DNA of 33,156 nt. It comes from a virus. Made by a program: the position numbers and the translations under genes. Position 1 is the first letter of the stretch; the number at the start of each line of letters is the position of its first letter. Under the pieces are notes generated by a model. That model made no database searches. It had not been told where the DNA came from and saw nothing but the letters and a program-made list of their open reading frames with translations. Below are positions 882-31,845 of the stretch, in pieces. The DNA is taken from positions 1 to 33,156 of the IMG/VR virus record IMGVR_UViG_3300010885_035445; one strand, written 5' to 3'.

Positions 882-4382
<3,501 letters not shown>

Positions 4383-16392: not shown

Positions 16393-16659
16393 ATGAACAG
16401 GGGAGAAATCCTAAACGTGGCTTCTGAGCTGATCTACAACGACCGCGAAGCCGAGTACGGAACACCGCAAGAGAACTTCTACAGGATCGCAAAGCTCTGG
16501 AGCATCGTCCTGGAAACTCCAATTACTGAATATCAGGTTGCCTTGTGCATGAATCAGCTCAAGGTTGCCCGATTAGTTCAATCTCCAGATAAACTTGACG
16601 GCTGGATCGACGGCGCGGCTTATATGGCAATCGGCGGCGAATTAGCTACACAGGAATAA
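16393..16659 (+). CDS. DUF6378-like phage protein
   Basis: The 88-residue protein carries the pattern NDREAEYGTPQENFYRIAKLWS, then MNQLKVARL and GWIDGAAYMAIGGELA, characteristic of small phage proteins grouped as DUF6378. Their function is unknown. The MazG-like helical arrangement hints at a link to nucleotides. It is the last gene of the late rightward block and stops two bases before the terminator A-run. Confidence 0.75.
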   Translation: MNRGEILNVASELIYNDREAEYGTPQENFYRIAKLWSIVLETPITEYQVALCMNQLKVARLVQSPDKLDGWIDGAAYMAIGGELATQE

Positions 16660-16660
16660 A

Positions 16661-16730
16661 AAAAGACCGCCTACGGCGGATCATGGCAACCCCTTCTGTC
16701 CATGATCCTGATCGTAGGCGGTCTCTTTTT
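16661..16730. terminator. Nested bidirectional terminator
   Basis: A perfect 12-bp outer stem pairs AGACCGCCTACG (16664-16675) with CGTAGGCGGTCT (16713-16724). Inside, GGATCATGG (16678-16686) pairs with CCATGATCC (16700-16708) around a 13-nt loop. A run of A precedes it and a run of T follows, so it can end transcription from both sides. The rightward late block stops here, and the leftward operon stop codon (16730-16732) touches its edge. It is longer than a normal terminator, so a stable small RNA is possible. Confidence 0.88.
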
Positions 16731-16885
16731 TATTGCTTGGAAGAGTAATACTCCCCCAATTGGCGCTGACGGGCGCGCTCGCAGACGTAATTAAAGACTC
16801 TCCACAGAATCACTGGAACGGTGTAAACTGTCGTAAACACTAAAATTATGAAAGTCCAGGACTCTAAAGGCGACATTGGGAACAT
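16730..16885 (-). CDS. Small single-span membrane protein, 51 residues
   Basis: Last gene of the leftward operon. AAGGAG lies seven bases before the ATG. The protein has a hydrophobic N-terminal span (SWTFIILVFTTVYTVPVIL) followed by a basic tail (RVFNYVCERARQRQ), giving an N-out, C-in anchor. Its stop codon lies at the foot of the bidirectional terminator. Function unknown. Small early membrane proteins of phages often act on host envelope processes or exclude other phages. Confidence 0.65.
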   Translation of the reverse strand: MFPMSPLESWTFIILVFTTVYTVPVILWRVFNYVCERARQRQLGEYYSSKQ

Positions 16886-24173: not shown

Positions 24174-26347
24174 TGCCAGAACCAGAAGTATCAGTTCAAG
24201 GTCCATACGAGCAAGCAGCTAAAGAATATCGGGCGCTCGGTTGGCTTGATGTGCTGCCACTTCCGGCAGGAAAGAAATCTCACCCGCCGACTGGATTTAC
24301 CGGTAAGCGATTTGCGCACGTATCACCTGACAACGATCAGATCCTTTCGTGGATCAAGAATCGCGGATCTGGAAACGTAGCTCTTCGCATGCCCGCAAAC
24401 GTCCTCGGTATCGATGTCGATGCGTATGGAGATAAGGCGGGACTTGAAAGCTTGACACGAGCCATGTCAAGTTTTGGACCTCTTCCAGATACTTGGCGCG
24501 TCACTTCTCGCGATGATGGAACTTCCGGGATCAGGTTCTACCGAGTTCCAGAAGGTCTTCAATGGCCCAATCAAGTGGGACCGGGAATTGAAACAATTCA
24601 CCGAGGTCATCGATATGCGGTCGTTTGGCCCAGCCTTCACCCCGAGGGAAGAGTTTATCGATGGATCGGTCCCGGAAATATGAGCCATGTCGGCCCGGGT
24701 CCTTCTCCTATGATCCTTCCTGAGCTTCCCGCAACATGGGTTCATGGATTAACTCGAGGTCAGGCAGCGTTGCCAGCCACCGAAAGAGCTGATAGCAACG
24801 CGGAGGAACTCGCAGTCGCTTTTGCTGAGTGGTGCACGGCGGGAATGCCTTGCGGCTTAGTCCACAGAAAACTCGATGAACTCAATGACGCTTTATCTGG
24901 TCGTCTTGGATCTCGCCATGACGCAGTTCGCGATCTCATGTTGGGACTGTTGCGCTTAGGTCAAATTGGGCATCACGGTGTTGGTTACTCATTGCAGAAG
25001 ACCGGAAACGACTTTGTAATGATAGTTGGCGCTGATCGTGGTAATCATGAAGCTGAGTTGGAATGGAAGAGAATGTTGCTTGGCGGCATATCTATTATTC
25101 TTGCAAAGATGCAGCCGCATGAAGTATGTCATGGCAAAGATTGCGATGGCAAACTTAAGGGCATGGAATTTAGTGTTGAACAATTTCTTTCTCCAGTTGA
25201 ATCATTACCGGTTGTAGATCCTGCAACGGGCGAGATTCTTGAACAAGAAGAAGTTTCTATCTATGCTGATCTCTCTTGGTTACTTACTGGCAAAGCACCA
25301 GAAATCGATCCGCCTTCATGGGTAACAAGATCAGACGGCGCAGCGCTTTTCTATCAGGGACGAATTAACGGCGTTTTTGGTGATCCTGAGACAGCAAAGT
25401 CATGGCTTGCCATGTGCGCAGTTGTTGAAGGATTGCACAAGAATCGCAAGGCGGTTTATCTTGACGTGGACCATAACGGATCGGCTGAAATAGCCACTCG
25501 TTTGATTGCTCTTGGTGCGCCAATTGCCTGCGTTGCAAATCCGGAGCTATTTCGTATTGCAGAACCCGAAGACATTATTGGACTTCGTCAGTTTATCCAG
25601 GATATGCTTATTTGGAAACCAGATATTGCAGTCGTTGATTCACTTGGTGAAATTGTTCCAATGTTGGGACTGAAATCCACAGATAACGACGACATCACGA
25701 AGGCAATTCGTGCGGTCTGCAAACCTCTGGCCCACGTCATCGGTGCTTGCGTTATTACCATCGACCACTTACCAAAGGGAGTTGATGCAAGATCCTCGGG
25801 TTATGCGATTGGCGGTACTGCAAAGAAACGCGCCGTTGATGGGACTTATCTATCTGCGGAAGTTTTACTTGCTCCAGCTCCAGGAAAGCTTGGAAAGATC
25901 AGTTTATCAATTGAAAAGGATCGTAACGGCGGACTTAGATCAGCATCACCCGGAAAGCATGCCGGGACTTTTGTTCTTGATTCTCAAGATCCATTGCGTA
26001 CCAAGTGGCATATTGAAATGCCCACGTTATCCTCCGATGGTCGCATGCGGCCAACGCTCTTGATGGAACGATCATCACGATTTGTTATTGAATGGATCGG
26101 GTCAGAGGCGCCAACAAGAAACGAAATTGTTAAGGGTGTCAAAGGTAAAGATTCAGCGGTTGGTTTAGCCGTTGATATTCTTGTTGAAGAGGGTTATCTC
26201 TCTGAGACCAAAGACGGAGACGCAAAGAATTCCGCGCGTCGTTTCACGTCAATTAAGCCATATTCAAGCTCGCTTGATCCTCTTTCAGATCAGGCAGTGT
26301 CAACGTTTACTCAACCAGGGGGAAGAAATGACTTATACTTCGATTGA
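24170..26347 (+). CDS. Primase-polymerase/helicase replication protein
   Basis: The 725-residue protein is the main replication enzyme. Residues about 10-200 form a bifunctional primase-polymerase domain, with catalytic D82 and D84 in VLGIDVDAYG, then GIRFYR and an HRGHRYAVVWPS segment. After a linker, residues about 385-600 form a RecA-like RepA/AAA_25-type ATPase: Walker A GDPETAKS (404-411), Walker B IAVVD (486-490) and VITIDHLPKG. The C-terminus has a winged-helix-like part (NEIVKGVKGKDSAVGLAVDILVEEGYL). It would unwind the origin and prime synthesis. No replicative polymerase is seen nearby, so host polymerase is probably used. It overlaps the methyltransferase by 20 nt. Confidence 0.87.
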   Translation: MMPEPEVSVQGPYEQAAKEYRALGWLDVLPLPAGKKSHPPTGFTGKRFAHVSPDNDQILSWIKNRGSGNVALRMPANVLGIDVDAYGDKAGLESLTRAMSSFGPLPDTWRVTSRDDGTSGIRFYRVPEGLQWPNQVGPGIETIHRGHRYAVVWPSLHPEGRVYRWIGPGNMSHVGPGPSPMILPELPATWVHGLTRGQAALPATERADSNAEELAVAFAEWCTAGMPCGLVHRKLDELNDALSGRLGSRHDAVRDLMLGLLRLGQIGHHGVGYSLQKTGNDFVMIVGADRGNHEAELEWKRMLLGGISIILAKMQPHEVCHGKDCDGKLKGMEFSVEQFLSPVESLPVVDPATGEILEQEEVSIYADLSWLLTGKAPEIDPPSWVTRSDGAALFYQGRINGVFGDPETAKSWLAMCAVVEGLHKNRKAVYLDVDHNGSAEIATRLIALGAPIACVANPELFRIAEPEDIIGLRQFIQDMLIWKPDIAVVDSLGEIVPMLGLKSTDNDDITKAIRAVCKPLAHVIGACVITIDHLPKGVDARSSGYAIGGTAKKRAVDGTYLSAEVLLAPAPGKLGKISLSIEKDRNGGLRSASPGKHAGTFVLDSQDPLRTKWHIEMPTLSSDGRMRPTLLMERSSRFVIEWIGSEAPTRNEIVKGVKGKDSAVGLAVDILVEEGYLSETKDGDAKNSARRFTSIKPYSSSLDPLSDQAVSTFTQPGGRNDLYFD

Positions 26348-27479
26348 TTGCCAATCGTTTGCAGGTGGATTTACACTAGGAACTAAGCTTGCGGGATTCC
26401 AGATCATCGGCAAGCGTGAAGCTGTCGGCGGCTTTGGCGTCCCGGCTGTGGAAGGTAACAAAAAGTTACTTGGGGACTTTGAGATCGAGGTCGGGACTCC
26501 AGATACTTGGACGCCTCTTAAAGCCGATCTGGTCTTTGGAAATCCTCCGTGCTCAGGGTTCTCTAACCGATCCTCAATGGTTCGAGGTCTCAATGCCGAT
26601 GGTGTGATCCAAAGGATCAATTACACGGGTTACTCAGCTTCGCCAAATCAATGCATGTGGGATTTGGTCGAATATGCTGCCGCTTGTGATCCTGAAATTG
26701 TGATGTTTGAGTCAGTTCAAGGCGCCTATAACAAGGGCCGAGACCTCATGCAGGATCTAAGAAGTCATCTGGAGCTTAAAACTGGATCTCAGTATAACCT
26801 CTTTCACGTTCTGCATGACGTAGCCAAACTTGGCGGCGCGCAGGAACGAAAGCGCTACTTCTGGGTAGCTTCTAGGATCGAATTCGGGGTAGATCCGGTC
26901 GAGAGATCAGCAACAACGGTCCAGGATCGGATCGGTGACCTTGAGAACGTTGCTCTTGGATCTATCGATGGTCATGTGATCGAAGATACGCCTAGAGGTC
27001 GCAGAGTAGCTGAATTGGCGTCCAAGATCCAATGGGACCCGTGGGAAGTCATCGGGACGGTTTATCAGCGAGCTATGGAAGAAGGCGTGGAGTTATCTGA
27101 GGAAAACTGGCCCGATCATATTCAATCGGAGAAGCGCGTTACTCAGTTCGTTCCAAAGCGCCTAGATTACTCAAAGCCGTCGAACGTTCTCGCAGGTGAT
27201 TGCCTTTGGATGCAGGTTCACCCAACTCTGCCCCGGACTCTGACCCACCGCGAGATTGCTCGGCTGTCCGGGTATCCCGATGAGTGGTCGTGTGATCCTT
27301 ATATTCAAAAGAAAGCTCACTCTCGTTTCTGGGGTAAAGGGATCTGTGTCGAAGCTGGCAAGTGGATTGCGACGGCTGCCTACGATGCCATTTCCGGATC
27401 ACCTCAGCAATATCAGGGTGAACTGATCGGCGATCGTGAGTTCCTAATCGACTTCAGCAAGGCTAAAAAAAATGGATAA
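26328..27479 (+). CDS. C5-cytosine DNA methyltransferase
   Basis: The 383-residue protein has the order of C5-MTase motifs. Motif I is SFAGGFTLGTKLAGF and motif IV is GNPPCSGFSN, with catalytic C75. Motif VI is FESVQGAY, where Glu128 is kept but the usual ENV is ESV. Motif VIII is AQERKRYFWV, motif IX is HPTLPRTLTHREIARLSGYP, and motif X is GKGICVEAGKW. It would methylate cytosine in phage DNA, probably against host restriction. The recognition sequence cannot be read from the protein. It sits between the primase gene and the repeat array. AGGGGGAAGAA precedes the ATG at 26328. Confidence 0.83.
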   Translation: MTYTSIDCQSFAGGFTLGTKLAGFQIIGKREAVGGFGVPAVEGNKKLLGDFEIEVGTPDTWTPLKADLVFGNPPCSGFSNRSSMVRGLNADGVIQRINYTGYSASPNQCMWDLVEYAAACDPEIVMFESVQGAYNKGRDLMQDLRSHLELKTGSQYNLFHVLHDVAKLGGAQERKRYFWVASRIEFGVDPVERSATTVQDRIGDLENVALGSIDGHVIEDTPRGRRVAELASKIQWDPWEVIGTVYQRAMEEGVELSEENWPDHIQSEKRVTQFVPKRLDYSKPSNVLAGDCLWMQVHPTLPRTLTHREIARLSGYPDEWSCDPYIQKKAHSRFWGKGICVEAGKWIATAAYDAISGSPQQYQGELIGDREFLIDFSKAKKNG

Positions 27480-27735: not shown

Positions 27736-28039
27736 ACCCTTCAAGACAACAGCGGTAGAAGAATCGATATGTGCTCGCTGCAAGGCGGTCGTTTGGCAAT
27801 GCTGGGCCGGAGGGTTCGATGTGAAGTTGGATCGAATCTTGTTATCCAAGTTTGAGGAACTTCAGATTCACCTGCAAGGCGGATCGACGTTTAAGCTGGT
27901 GATGACCATGAGGGAAACAACGGCGAAACTCCGGTTACTCCGGGATCTTCAAAATGGGATCAATGGACCTCAACCTTTGGTACTTTCTCTTCATGAATGC
28001 AAAGAGGAGACACTCGTAAATGCGCAGCTCCCGTTCTGA
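27728..28039 (+). CDS. Hypothetical protein with CxxC pair, 103 residues
   Basis: The protein starts with SICARCKAVVWQCWAGGFDVKLD, a possible partial zinc site also seen in small actinophage proteins, and continues with mixed helix and strand (ILLSKFEELQIHLQGG, LRLLRDLQNG). It overlaps the preceding gene by 8 nt and the next by 20 nt. GAGGA precedes the ATG. Function unknown. Confidence 0.65.
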   Translation: MSEPFKTTAVEESICARCKAVVWQCWAGGFDVKLDRILLSKFEELQIHLQGGSTFKLVMTMRETTAKLRLLRDLQNGINGPQPLVLSLHECKEETLVNAQLPF

Positions 28040-28625
28040 ACTGATGGCGACGCTGATCGATGACGTGGCGCACCTGACGAAGGCTTACGATCACGAAGAG
28101 CCAATGGACAACGGTAAAACACACGTTTCCCGCCACGAGAGCCTGCTTAGGCAGCTTTACGCTGAGGTTTATGAGTCTACACCTAGCTCCAACGCGGACG
28201 GATCTTCTAAGAGGTCTCAGGCGGGTTCTAAGACGCCAATTAATGACGAATTAATGGAGTTGCTGATTAACGCGGATCGGTTAAGCATCAATTTGGTCAT
28301 GATGTCCGGAGGAAAGCTTCAAACCTCAATTGCTGAAAATTTTTACCAATTGCCAAGTGCCTTGATCAACGCTACCGATGAATTGGTGGATCACGTTTCA
28401 GGTCAGGTCGCGTTTTATCGAAATCAGGTCGAATTAGCTCTTAACTGGAAAGAGAAGCCTCGCAAGATTAGCCGAGCGTGTCCTCTTTGCAGTATGAGTA
28501 ATGCGATCACGGTCCAGATGGATCATTACGGACCAACCTCAGCAAGATGTACAAAATGTCATGCTGAGTGGGATAAGACGCAATTGGGTATCCTGGCCGG
28601 ATCTATGAAGAAACACCCGGAGTAA
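28020..28625 (+). CDS. Hypothetical protein with C-terminal zinc ribbon, 201 residues
   Basis: The N-terminal two thirds are helical (SELMATLIDDVAHLTKAYD, then NDELMELLINADRLSINLVMM). The C-terminus holds a zinc ribbon (CPLCSMSNAITVQ, then ARCTKCHAEWDK) with two C-x2-C pairs. This design recalls actinophage proteins of unknown role, often near replication genes. It is the last gene before a new promoter. Confidence 0.7.
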   Translation: MRSSRSELMATLIDDVAHLTKAYDHEEPMDNGKTHVSRHESLLRQLYAEVYESTPSSNADGSSKRSQAGSKTPINDELMELLINADRLSINLVMMSGGKLQTSIAENFYQLPSALINATDELVDHVSGQVAFYRNQVELALNWKEKPRKISRACPLCSMSNAITVQMDHYGPTSARCTKCHAEWDKTQLGILAGSMKKHPE

Positions 28626-28663: not shown

Positions 28664-28710
28664 CCTCGGCGAGGTGTCTGTTGGGGAAGGCAGCCCTCGC
28701 CATTATTATT
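28664..28710 (+). promoter_or_regulatory. 5' leader stem-loop with two competing pairings
   Basis: GGCGAGG (28668-28674) pairs with CCTCGCC (28695-28701) around a 20-nt loop, followed by ATTATTATTT. GAGG (28671-28674) can instead pair with CCTC (28664-28667). If transcription starts near 28667 the hairpin caps the mRNA 5' end and may stabilise it. If it starts upstream the element looks like a weak terminator. AGGGAG of the next gene lies eleven bases past it. Confidence 0.5.
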
Positions 28711-28723
28711 TCAGGGAGATCCG

Positions 28724-29326
28724 ATGACAACGCTAATTGCTTTCCAGCATGATGATTGGTGCATGATCGCAGCGGACTCTCAAACTTCTTTTGGTCATTT
28801 AAGAGCTGATTGCTCACCAATGGGAAAAATTGCAATTAATGGAAAATATTTAGTTGCAGCAGCAGGAACAGTTCGCGGAATGAACATCGTTCAACATTCG
28901 TTTCGTCCACCTGCACCACCTAAGACAAATCTTGATTCATTTATGGTGAATAAATTTGTTCCGGCATTAAGAAAAACTTTTATTGATTCCGGATACGAAA
29001 TGAAAGAAAGCGGCGATGTTGCTTCTTTTGATAATGATTTAATTGTTGCAGTAAATGGAACAATTTATTTTATTGATGAAGTTTACGGATTAGAACGCAA
29101 CAAAGAAAATCTTCATGTCACCGGGACGGGGCGACAAATAGCTTTGGGCGCAGCGGTTGCTTTAGGAATTAACGATGTTGATTCATTTGAAGAAGCTGTT
29201 GATATTTTAGAACAAGCCGTTAAAACAGCAATTAAATTTGACATATATTCAGGGGATGCAGTGCAGGTTGCGATTCAACATAAAGATGGTCGCACTTATA
29301 TTGCATTACTCGACGACGAAGAGTAA
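28724..29326 (+). CDS. HslV/proteasome-beta-like Ntn hydrolase
   Basis: The 200-residue protein follows HslV and proteasome beta subunits almost step by step. It begins MTTLIAF, so removal of Met leaves the N-terminal Thr nucleophile. IAADSQT puts Asp at position 17 counted from that Thr, as in HslV. GKIAING gives a Lys at 34 (33 in HslV), and TGTGRQIALGAAVAL matches the GSG-helix segment. It ends with a helix and strand (DIYSGDAVQVAI). It could form a peptidase ring or be an inactive relative. No HslU-like ATPase is seen in this window. It has its own promoter and lies directly upstream of the packaging genes. Confidence 0.8.
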   Translation: MTTLIAFQHDDWCMIAADSQTSFGHLRADCSPMGKIAINGKYLVAAAGTVRGMNIVQHSFRPPAPPKTNLDSFMVNKFVPALRKTFIDSGYEMKESGDVASFDNDLIVAVNGTIYFIDEVYGLERNKENLHVTGTGRQIALGAAVALGINDVDSFEEAVDILEQAVKTAIKFDIYSGDAVQVAIQHKDGRTYIALLDDEE

Positions 29327-29328
29327 TC

Positions 29329-29652
29329 ATGCCTAAGATGGCGTGCCTTACCTGTGGCATACCTACAGCAAGAAGTAGATGCGATAGATGCCAAGCAATA
29401 AGAGATGCTGATCAACCACCACGAGTACGCACCACAGCGCAGCAACGTGGTTACGATTCAGCATGGTCCAAGATTCGCCTACAAATACTAGCCCGCGATA
29501 ACTGGGTGTGCTATCTATGCGAGAAGAGACTGATCGGTAGAGATGCCACGGTTGATCACGTGGTGGCGCTAGCTAATGGTGGAGCGAGGTTAGATCCGAA
29601 TAATCTGCGTGCATGTTGTTTAAGTTGTAATAGTAAGAAGCAGCATCGCTGA
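29329..29652 (+). CDS. HNH endonuclease next to terminase
   Basis: The 107-residue protein has N-terminal CLTCG and CDRC pairs, then the HNH core: WVCYLCEKRL, ATVDHVVALANGGARLDPNNLRACCLSCNSKK. In HK97-like phages an HNH protein beside the terminase is needed for cutting at cos and packaging. It sits two bases after the protease-like gene and 187 bp before terS, the expected place. Confidence 0.87.
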   Translation: MPKMACLTCGIPTARSRCDRCQAIRDADQPPRVRTTAQQRGYDSAWSKIRLQILARDNWVCYLCEKRLIGRDATVDHVVALANGGARLDPNNLRACCLSCNSKKQHR

Positions 29653-29839
29653 TCAACCTGATCTGATCGATCTGTGAGATGCAGAGCGCGGAGTGATACC
29701 ACATATCACTCAGATAATAAATAAAATATACGCAAAAATATTTCCATTTTTTCTGAGTAGAACCTACAGACCCCTCGCCCCCGCTTCGAATAAACATGCT
29801 CAAAATTACGAAATGGGCTTGACGCGATAGGATTTTGAT
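29653..29839. other. Packaging intergenic region, candidate cos/pac site
   Basis: This 187-bp gap between the HNH gene and terS is AT-rich except for a GC-rich core CCCCTCGCCCCCGC (29771-29784). It also holds a perfect inverted repeat GAGTGATA (29691-29698) / TATCACTC (29704-29711) with a 5-nt spacer, suited to binding a dimeric protein such as the small terminase. Cohesive-end sites of related phages lie here. No promoter is clear. Confidence 0.5.
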
Positions 29840-30298
29840 ATGGGAAGACCTCCGAAACCAGCTGAAATCAAACGAGCGACCGGTCGTACGCCGGGCCATG
29901 ACTCAGGCGGACGTCCGTTGCCCGAACTTGCGAACGTTACGATCCTGCCGATGGCTGAGATCAAACCTGAAGCTCCAGCAATGCTTGGAGAAGATGGCAA
30001 GTTGTTCTGGAATAGGATCTGGGATAACGCAATAACTTGGCTTTCTCCCGTCTCTGATCTGAGCGCAATTGAGAATGCCGCCAAGCTTGCCGATGCCGTG
30101 ACTGCGGCCCGGACCAAGTACATGGCAACCCTTGAATCTGCGGACGGTCGAGCTTATGTCCAGATCAATAAAGCTTTCACTGACTCACTCGCGTCGCTTG
30201 GATTTGATCCGGTATCGCGATCACGCCTTGGAGTAGCTGAAGTGAAGCGCGTAAGCGCTATCGATCAGCTTCTCGAAAAGAGGTTGAATAGAAAATAG
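29840..30298 (+). CDS. terS: Terminase small subunit, P27 family
   Basis: The 152-residue protein begins MGRPPKPAEIKRATGRTPGHD and GGRPLPE, the signature of P27-type small terminases, followed by helical segments (LFWNRIWDNAITWLSPVSDLSAIENAAKLADAV, split by short loops). It recognises phage DNA and recruits the large subunit encoded just downstream. Its ATG follows the weak site AGGA. Confidence 0.9.
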   Translation: MGRPPKPAEIKRATGRTPGHDSGGRPLPELANVTILPMAEIKPEAPAMLGEDGKLFWNRIWDNAITWLSPVSDLSAIENAAKLADAVTAARTKYMATLESADGRAYVQINKAFTDSLASLGFDPVSRSRLGVAEVKRVSAIDQLLEKRLNRK

Positions 30299-30306
30299 GG
30301 GAAATC

Positions 30307-31845
30307 ATGGGGAAACAAATTAAGGGCTGGCCGCCGCGTTATGTTTCACCACTGACCCCGGCGGATCTTAAAAAGACTCGCGGCGATGACATCATAGATT
30401 TCAGCGAAGCTCTTTGTTCGATTACAAAAGATTCAGTTGCCGGAGCAGCCGGAGAACCTTTAATCTTTAGAGACTGGCAAAAAAATTTAACCCGAGGTTT
30501 ATTCTCAGTAAAACAAGATGGATCGTTAAAGCACAAGCGCGCACTGATCGGTCTTCCTCGCAAGAATGGAAAGTCCGCGTGGTTATCTGCTCTTGCTCTT
30601 GAACATTTAGTTCTTGGTCCTACCGGCGGGGAAACATATTCCTGCGCAGCGGAAAAAGAACAAGCAAAAATTGTGTTTGGCACTGCCAAGCGCATGGTTG
30701 AAATGCAGCCCGAATTATCAGAGATGCTCGATGTATATCGAGACGCAATCTACAATCCAAAGACCGGATCGGTCTATCGGGCACTTTCAGCGGAAGCATT
30801 CTCAAAAGAAGGTTTATCACCAACGTTTGTTGCTTTCGATGAGCTTCACGCTCAGCCAAATCGTGAACTTTTTGATGTTATGTCTCTCGCAATGGGTGCT
30901 CGTCGCGAACCTCTCCTCGTTGCGATCACCACTGCGGGAGTCAAAACTGATACTTCGGGAAAAGATTCGTTGTGCTATCAGCTCTACGAGTACGGTAAAA
31001 GAGTTGCGAGCGGTGAAGTTGTTGATCCAAGTTTCTACTTTGCATGGTGGGAAGCTGACCCGGAATTAGATTTTAGGGAAAAAATTTCCTGGGAATCTGC
31101 AAATCCAGGGTTCAACGATATCGTTGCGCAAGACGACTTTGCTTCAGCGGTGCTGCAAACACCGGAAGCTGAATTTAAGACAAAGAGATTAAATGTTTGG
31201 ACATCGACCTCGGATGCGTGGCTTCCTCATGGTGCTTGGGATTCTTGCTTTGATGCACGTGCTATCGAAGAAGGCGGTCAAGTTGTACTTGGCTTCGATG
31301 GATCATTTAACGGAGACTGCACGGTAATTGTCGCGGTAACGTGCGATGAAGTTCCTCATATTGTTCCGCTTTATGTCTGGGAAAAACCAGAAGAAGCTGG
31401 AGCAGATTGGCAAGTCCCGGTGCTTGACGTTGAAGACGCAATCAGGGAAGCTTGTAAGAAATATGAAGTTTTAGAAATTGCCTGCGATCCTTATCGTTGG
31501 GCTAGAACATTTCAGATTCTTGAAGAAGAAGGTTTGCCAGTCGTAACCTTCCCGCAAACAGCTTCAAGAATGACACCGGCAACGACTCGTTTTTATGAGG
31601 CTGTTGTTAACAAATCAATAACTCATGACGGCGATCCTCAAATGTCACGTCATATTGCTAATGCAACTCTTCGAGTAGATCAACGCGGATCACGTCTTGC
31701 AAAAGAAAAACGTGGATCAACTCGTAGAATTGACTTAGCTGTGTCCGCTGTAATGGCGCTTGAACGCGCCGTTTGGTGGCACTCACAGGGTGGGAATCTT
31801 CCCATGATCTTTGATCCGTGGACTATGGAGGACAACAATGCTTGA
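30307..31845 (+). CDS. terL: Terminase large subunit, HK97-like
   Basis: The 512-residue packaging motor has Walker A IGLPRKNGKS (81-90), an adenine-side segment SCAAEKEQAKIVFG, Walker B TFVAFDELH (173-181) and coupling motif ITTAG. The C-terminal RNase H-like nuclease shows LGFDGSFNGD (near 330), IACDPYRW and RRIDLAVSAV acidic residues. Complete in length for Terminase_1 proteins. AGGGGAAATC precedes the ATG. Overlaps the next small gene by 8 nt. Confidence 0.95.
   Translation: MGKQIKGWPPRYVSPLTPADLKKTRGDDIIDFSEALCSITKDSVAGAAGEPLIFRDWQKNLTRGLFSVKQDGSLKHKRALIGLPRKNGKSAWLSALALEHLVLGPTGGETYSCAAEKEQAKIVFGTAKRMVEMQPELSEMLDVYRDAIYNPKTGSVYRALSAEAFSKEGLSPTFVAFDELHAQPNRELFDVMSLAMGARREPLLVAITTAGVKTDTSGKDSLCYQLYEYGKRVASGEVVDPSFYFAWWEADPELDFREKISWESANPGFNDIVAQDDFASAVLQTPEAEFKTKRLNVWTSTSDAWLPHGAWDSCFDARAIEEGGQVVLGFDGSFNGDCTVIVAVTCDEVPHIVPLYVWEKPEEAGADWQVPVLDVEDAIREACKKYEVLEIACDPYRWARTFQILEEEGLPVVTFPQTASRMTPATTRFYEAVVNKSITHDGDPQMSRHIANATLRVDQRGSRLAKEKRGSTRRIDLAVSAVMALERAVWWHSQGGNLPMIFDPWTMEDNNA

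Follow-up and report, generated by a model that had tools for sequence, protein, structure and literature searches.

A proteasome-fold threonine peptidase gene in a freshwater actinophage, probably an accessory infection enzyme

Introduction

Proteasome homologs carried by phages have been on record since 2021, when the families PPH, AAH and CPH were described by Fuchs, Alva and Lupas (PMC8665760). The same work covers the beta-proteobacterial proteasome homolog BPH, which has a long acidic pore loop and seems to work without an unfoldase, and connectase, a monomeric specific ligase among the proteasome-fold homologs (PMC8665760). We found no paper assigning a function to any phage proteasome homolog.

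Here we describe a gene of this fold in a stretch of viral DNA of 33,156 nucleotides (IMG/VR record IMGVR_UViG_3300010885_035445, positions 1 to 33,156), referred to throughout as the window. An original prediction had read the gene as an HslV/proteasome-beta-like protease with an apparently intact active site, located beside the packaging genes, and had called such proteins rare in phages. The claim of rarity is not supported: these proteins have a PHROG, their phage families were published in 2021, and relatives of the window protein are encoded by hundreds of IMG/VR loci. The analysis below delimits an actinophage group of these proteins in which the catalytic residues are invariant.

Results

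The open reading frame runs from an ATG at 28724 to a TAA ending at 29326 and encodes a protein of 200 aa with the N-terminus MTT. The protein was matched by the Pfam Proteasome family above the gathering cut-off (PF00227, E 8e-7), by the PHROG profile annotated 'peptidase HslV family' over residues 1-188 (phrog_1040, E 2.4e-22) and, over its full length, by the proteasome beta subunit of M. jannaschii (1.5e-7). When a family profile built from 34 relatives was compared with the PDB, the first matches were BPH (1.7e-10) and HslV (3.5e-10). An AlphaFold2 model (mean pLDDT 85, pTM 0.83) returned BPH chains as the top Foldseek matches (E 1.3e-11) and aligned with 20S beta subunits in VIA-align at Z ~21, with model residue 2 superposed on Thr1 of the 20S beta chains in most rows. 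The model has the beta-sheet core and flanking helices of an Ntn-hydrolase fold, and two helices (residues 50-59 and 70-88) lie ahead of the strand at 104-110. Taken together, these matches confirm that the gene encodes a phage-borne proteasome-fold Ntn-hydrolase, as the original prediction had proposed.

Curated family models set a limit to this assignment. The window protein scored 22-23 bits against HslV equivalog models with cut-offs of 137-158 and 44.5 bits against arc_protsome_B with a cut-off of 224, and the 20S_bact_beta model gave no match at E<=1. Membership of HslV or of the 20S beta family is therefore ruled out by these cut-offs, and the statement that the protein follows HslV closely was too strong. 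By profile comparison, the family appears nearest to BPH.

The active site was compared across 109 aligned relatives from five groups. In mature numbering the residue that follows the initiator Met (residue 2 when Met is 1) is Thr1, and the catalytic Lys is offset by one residue from Lys33. Thr1, Asp17 and the Lys33 equivalent are present in all of the relatives and Gly47 in 108, and the window protein has all four. The TGTG motif is followed by a helix, as predicted, and in the actinophage kin its two Gly are separated by Thr or Ser; FDIYSG, close to the C-terminus, supplies the D166/S169 equivalents. Compared with its two nearest relatives, the gene has a dN/dS of ~0.07-0.1 (dN and dS pairs within this lineage of 0.035/0.34, 0.031/0.43 and 0.049/0.58). 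In the lineage at 69% identity (L004), dN of 0.004-0.054 against dS of 0.13-0.59 gives ratios mostly below those of the window lineage. As read from these alignments, the protease gene is intact and selected. The features of the locus are collected in Table 1.

Table 1. Features of the protease locus and of genes discussed in the text (window coordinates)
Feature	Position	Strand	Evidence
Proteasome-like (BPH/HslV-type) Thr peptidase gene	28724..29326	+	PF00227, phrog_1040, PDB profile matches to BPH/HslV, AlphaFold2 fold
Thr1 codon, nucleophile after Met removal	28727..28729	+	109/109 conserved; model residue 2 on 20S beta Thr1
Asp17 codon	28775..28777	+	109/109 conserved
Lys33-equivalent codon (Lys34 in mature numbering)	28826..28828	+	109/109 conserved
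TGTG motif, Ser129-region equivalent	29120..29131	+	both Gly in 108/109
GC hairpin GGCGAGG...CCTCGCC, between zinc-ribbon gene and protease start	28668..28701	+	identical in three window-lineage genomes
Likely ribosome-binding site AGGGAGA	28713..28719	+	sequence; conserved in 3 genomes
Upstream neighbour gene, 201 aa, zinc-ribbon-like C-terminus	28020..28625	+	gene/Pfam analysis; neighbour only
HNH endonuclease gene, neighbour, adjoins terminase	29329..29652	+	phrog_144 6.6e-23
Terminase small subunit (TerS), neighbour	29840..30298	+	phrog_83 8.9e-11
Terminase large subunit (TerL), neighbour	30307..31845	+	phrog_9 3.1e-116
Portal gene, broken off by contig end	31993..33156	+	Phage_portal 7.8e-79
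DUF6378 gene	16393..16659	+	PF19905 2.8e-29; homolog directly upstream, overlapping protease gene in 67-69% relatives

The hairpin upstream of the protease start is a possible terminator or attenuator. It was called terminator-like by a scan in which the number of such calls was near the shuffle expectation, and its fold was no better than that of shuffles (z-score only -0.6).

The gene order in the window (HslV-like protease, HNH, TerS, TerL, portal) bears out the predicted placement beside packaging genes, but among relatives that position is not conserved. The window and two relatives at 93-94% identity carry the protease after the zinc-ribbon gene and ahead of HNH. At 67-69% identity it lies downstream of lysis genes, overlaps DUF6378 by 4 bases (ATGA) and is followed by a convergent DUF932 gene. 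In a further set of loci (L161-L176) it stands alone, on the strand opposite to DUF6378 and MPE350, our working name for a 350-aa gene upstream of DUF6378 in which no Pfam family was found. Among 69 sampled loci around MPE350 with enough room, the protease was present in 49 and absent from 20. Since its position varies and part of the loci lack it, we regard the protease gene as accessory in freshwater actinophages and its packaging neighbourhood as incidental. DUF6378 was considered as a specific partner and rejected: the two genes adjoin and overlap in one sub-lineage only, are 12 kb apart in the window and lie on opposite strands in another lineage, and the neighbouring block is also found without the protease.

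Among relatives with a complete genome, the nearest (G001, contig of L002, 36,216 bases) encodes a 93% identical protease. Its two ends fall next to each other in the window, at 29763 and 29764, and the genome is therefore a complete circle. The window itself is a fragment that breaks within the portal gene and is without only bases 3394-6362 of the relative (~3 kb). That segment encodes a Peptidase_S78 protein (5.5e-44), which fills the protease slot between the portal and the presumed capsid, and a 447-aa protein whose N-terminal region is coiled-coil-like and which, from its sequence and its place in the major-capsid position, is presumed to be the major capsid protein. S78 was also found in five sister phages (~1e-44). 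With a canonical S78 in the complete relative and its sisters, head maturation in the window lineage thus has its own protease, and the proteasome-like protein is unlikely to be the capsid-maturation enzyme there, contrary to one of the roles first suggested for it.

A large and widespread sister lineage of freshwater actinophages includes two isolated Planktophila phages, LanE43AprF5 and LanE43AprE7 (OX376641 and OX376640; PMC10202952). In this lineage (L022, L026, L030-L109) the homolog lies directly downstream of the portal in 81 of 82 loci, a position that holds down to 52% identity. No S78, S14 or S49 protease was found in the tested records of the lineage; in the S77 search the controls themselves gave no match, and the absence of a head protease accordingly covers S78, S14 and S49. 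Genes for a major head protein (phrog_1357) and for a 158-aa protein that resembles a scaffold lie farther downstream in the cluster. As the homolog is fixed behind the portal and no known prohead protease was found in this lineage, the proteasome-type enzyme may be a head protease there. We put forward only tentatively the fuller reading, in which it would be a head-maturation or scaffold-digesting protease of the Planktophila phages and the window copy would serve, or would once have served, elsewhere in infection.

An ATPase partner, whose search had been proposed as a check, was not found. No AAA_2 protein (PF07724; HslU/ClpX/ClpB) scored above the cut-off in 20 records that include the window, the complete relative and its sisters; the same search gave a match in 14/14 control genomes, and HslU could be supplied by the host. 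ClpP was not found above the cut-off in 19 phage records, whereas the controls gave matches. PF00004 scored above the cut-off for a 260-aa P-loop protein of the Planktophila phages, which by sequence looks like a RecA/RepA-type helicase, and below the cut-off for a 161-aa protein of the window; neither was counted as an unfoldase. The pore loop, which follows helix 2, has 16 residues and a net charge of -4 in the window protein, with relatives reaching -6; the loop of E. coli HslV has 12 residues and a charge of +1, that of BPH 18 residues and a charge of -6.

WhiB is encoded in 14/20 phage records and is absent from the window and its two nearest kin; among the control genomes it was found in Corynebacterium only. 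The best match of the window TerL is that of Pontimonas phage phiPsal1 (49%). Judged from the WhiB-bearing sisters and TerL, the host of the window phage is probably an actinobacterium.

More distant homologs were compared in a tree. The nearest plasmid-borne ones (24-32% identity) are rhizobial and Streptomyces sequences, here called putative AAH on the basis of their taxonomy and not by comparison with reference AAH sequences. They fall in a 100/100 clade separate from the actinophage group, and the same clade takes in phage members from Geobacillus E3, Vibrio, Psychrobacter and Pseudoalteromonas phages. The deep branches (HslV, BPH, archaeal beta, actinophage group) have no firm order. GTDB genome scans with the window-family alignment and the Planktophila-phage protein as queries gave no cellular relatives, and the Pumpernickel homolog as query gave none in IMG/VR; the distant phage members, when all were aligned together, proved too variable for use as a query. 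The proteasome-like genes on rhizobial plasmids and a Streptomyces plasmid (L116-L119) are annotated as hypothetical, and the one on a plasmid of Rhizobium sp. CB3090 lies near nifHD. In L122 (327 aa) and L123 (388 aa), Vibrio and Pseudoalteromonas phages, the protein has a C-terminal extension; its gene lies close to ribonucleotide reductase and comes after PhoH, either directly or with a single small gene intervening.

Several other features of the window were recorded. A near-identical leader, AGGGGAAATAAATG, occurs eight times (10008, 14640, 14802, 16883 on the minus strand, 19457, 21557, 23944 and 26317), against 0.32 expected by shuffles (0/100 shuffles reach 8); several copies end at gene starts, and we read it as a shared translation-start or regulatory motif. 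Just after DUF6378, at 16655-16740, a very strong hairpin (-45.5 kcal/mol, z -10.5) with A and T runs at its flanks is probably a bidirectional terminator. Positions 882-4382 encode a tail fibre of 1166 aa with long collagen-like G-P-T repeats. A C-5 cytosine methyltransferase at 26172-27479 (PF00145, 1.9e-18), whose longest reading frame overlaps the end of the primase gene, is absent at the matching place from the gene calls of a close relative (L003).

Discussion

We consider it probable, from sequence comparison and the predicted structure, that the window protein is a catalytically competent, ring-forming and ATPase-independent Thr peptidase that serves as an accessory infection enzyme and is not the capsid-maturation protease of its lineage. 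Host methionine aminopeptidase would remove the Met of MTT and expose Thr1 without a propeptide, and Thr1, Asp17 and the Lys33 equivalent, to go by their conservation and the predicted fold, would make up the active site. Subunits would probably assemble into a BPH/HslV-like ring chamber. Because no HslU/ClpX-type ATPase was found in the phage, the digestion of peptides or unfolded proteins in such a chamber would need no dedicated one. During infection its targets may be proteins of the host or of the phage, and its role host takeover, protein turnover or the removal of a specific host protein. Two observations pull in other directions: the pore loop of the window lineage is only moderately acidic, and the post-portal placement in the Planktophila-phage lineage suggests that the homolog serves the head there.

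A more specialised activity is conceivable but improbable. Here the protein, as a sequence-specific protease, ligase or deamidase, would use connectase-like chemistry to modify a single host factor, for instance in counter-defence or regulation. The existence of connectase within the fold, the patchy accessory distribution, which suits a conflict gene, and the want of an unfoldase partner would fit such an enzyme; against it, strands 3 and 4 are not separated by an evident connectase-type insertion in the alignment, the closest folds are the ring-forming BPH and proteasome beta, and PADLOC gave no match, although that library is one of host defence proteins. More doubtful is a protease of head maturation or of the scaffold in the window phage, processing capsid, scaffold or portal proteins within the prohead. 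The gene does lie two genes upstream of TerS, and the Planktophila-phage homolog takes its place behind the portal where S78, S14 and S49 give no match, but the canonical S78 of the nearest complete genome and its five sisters, the variable position within the window's own family and the absence of the gene from part of that family argue otherwise. That the protein is a decoy or poison subunit, co-assembling with and disturbing the host Pup-proteasome, is hardly credible: the hosts are likely actinobacteria, a group with many members that possess a 20S proteasome, and the fold is that of 20S beta, but the invariant catalytic residues and strong purifying selection make a dead decoy unlikely, and the bacterial 20S beta model does not recognize the protein.

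The preferred reading, an accessory Thr peptidase, concerns a group found both in phages that have a dedicated head protease and in phages where none was found, and its presence/absence variation can be used for experiments. Its function is testable in isolated phages, namely Planktophila phages E7 and F5 and Arthrobacter phage Pitbull.

Among known systems, the annotated members of PHROG 1040 (Actinomycetia phage DSL-LC01, Arthrobacter phages Pitbull and Hum25, Microbacterium phage Pumpernickel, Geobacillus virus E3 and Vibrio phage 166E36-1) resemble the window protein in being phage-borne, with the same catalytic triad and no propeptide. They differ in sequence (21-37% identity) and in lying in early or middle accessory regions (WhiB, ThyX/MazG, TS/DHFR, PhoH), away from the terminase. 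PPH, AAH and CPH likewise share with it a place among the bacterial and phage group I homologs, a compact subunit and phage carriers. However, PPH has ~140 residues and is missing the second helix (H2; PMC8665760), whereas the window protein has 200 residues with both helices predicted, and membership of PPH was rejected on size and predicted helices. The putative AAH sequences carry a GFTSSFRM motif that the actinophage group does not have. HslV (ClpQ) has the same fold, Thr1, Asp17 and activation by Met removal, but the equivalog score is far too low, the phages encode no HslU and the pore loop of the window protein is longer. BPH (PDB 5ovs/5ovt/5ovu) is a cellular and not a phage protein and is only ~20-23% identical, yet it is the best match by both profile and Foldseek, and with the window phage it has in common a long acidic pore loop and the lack of a dedicated unfoldase.
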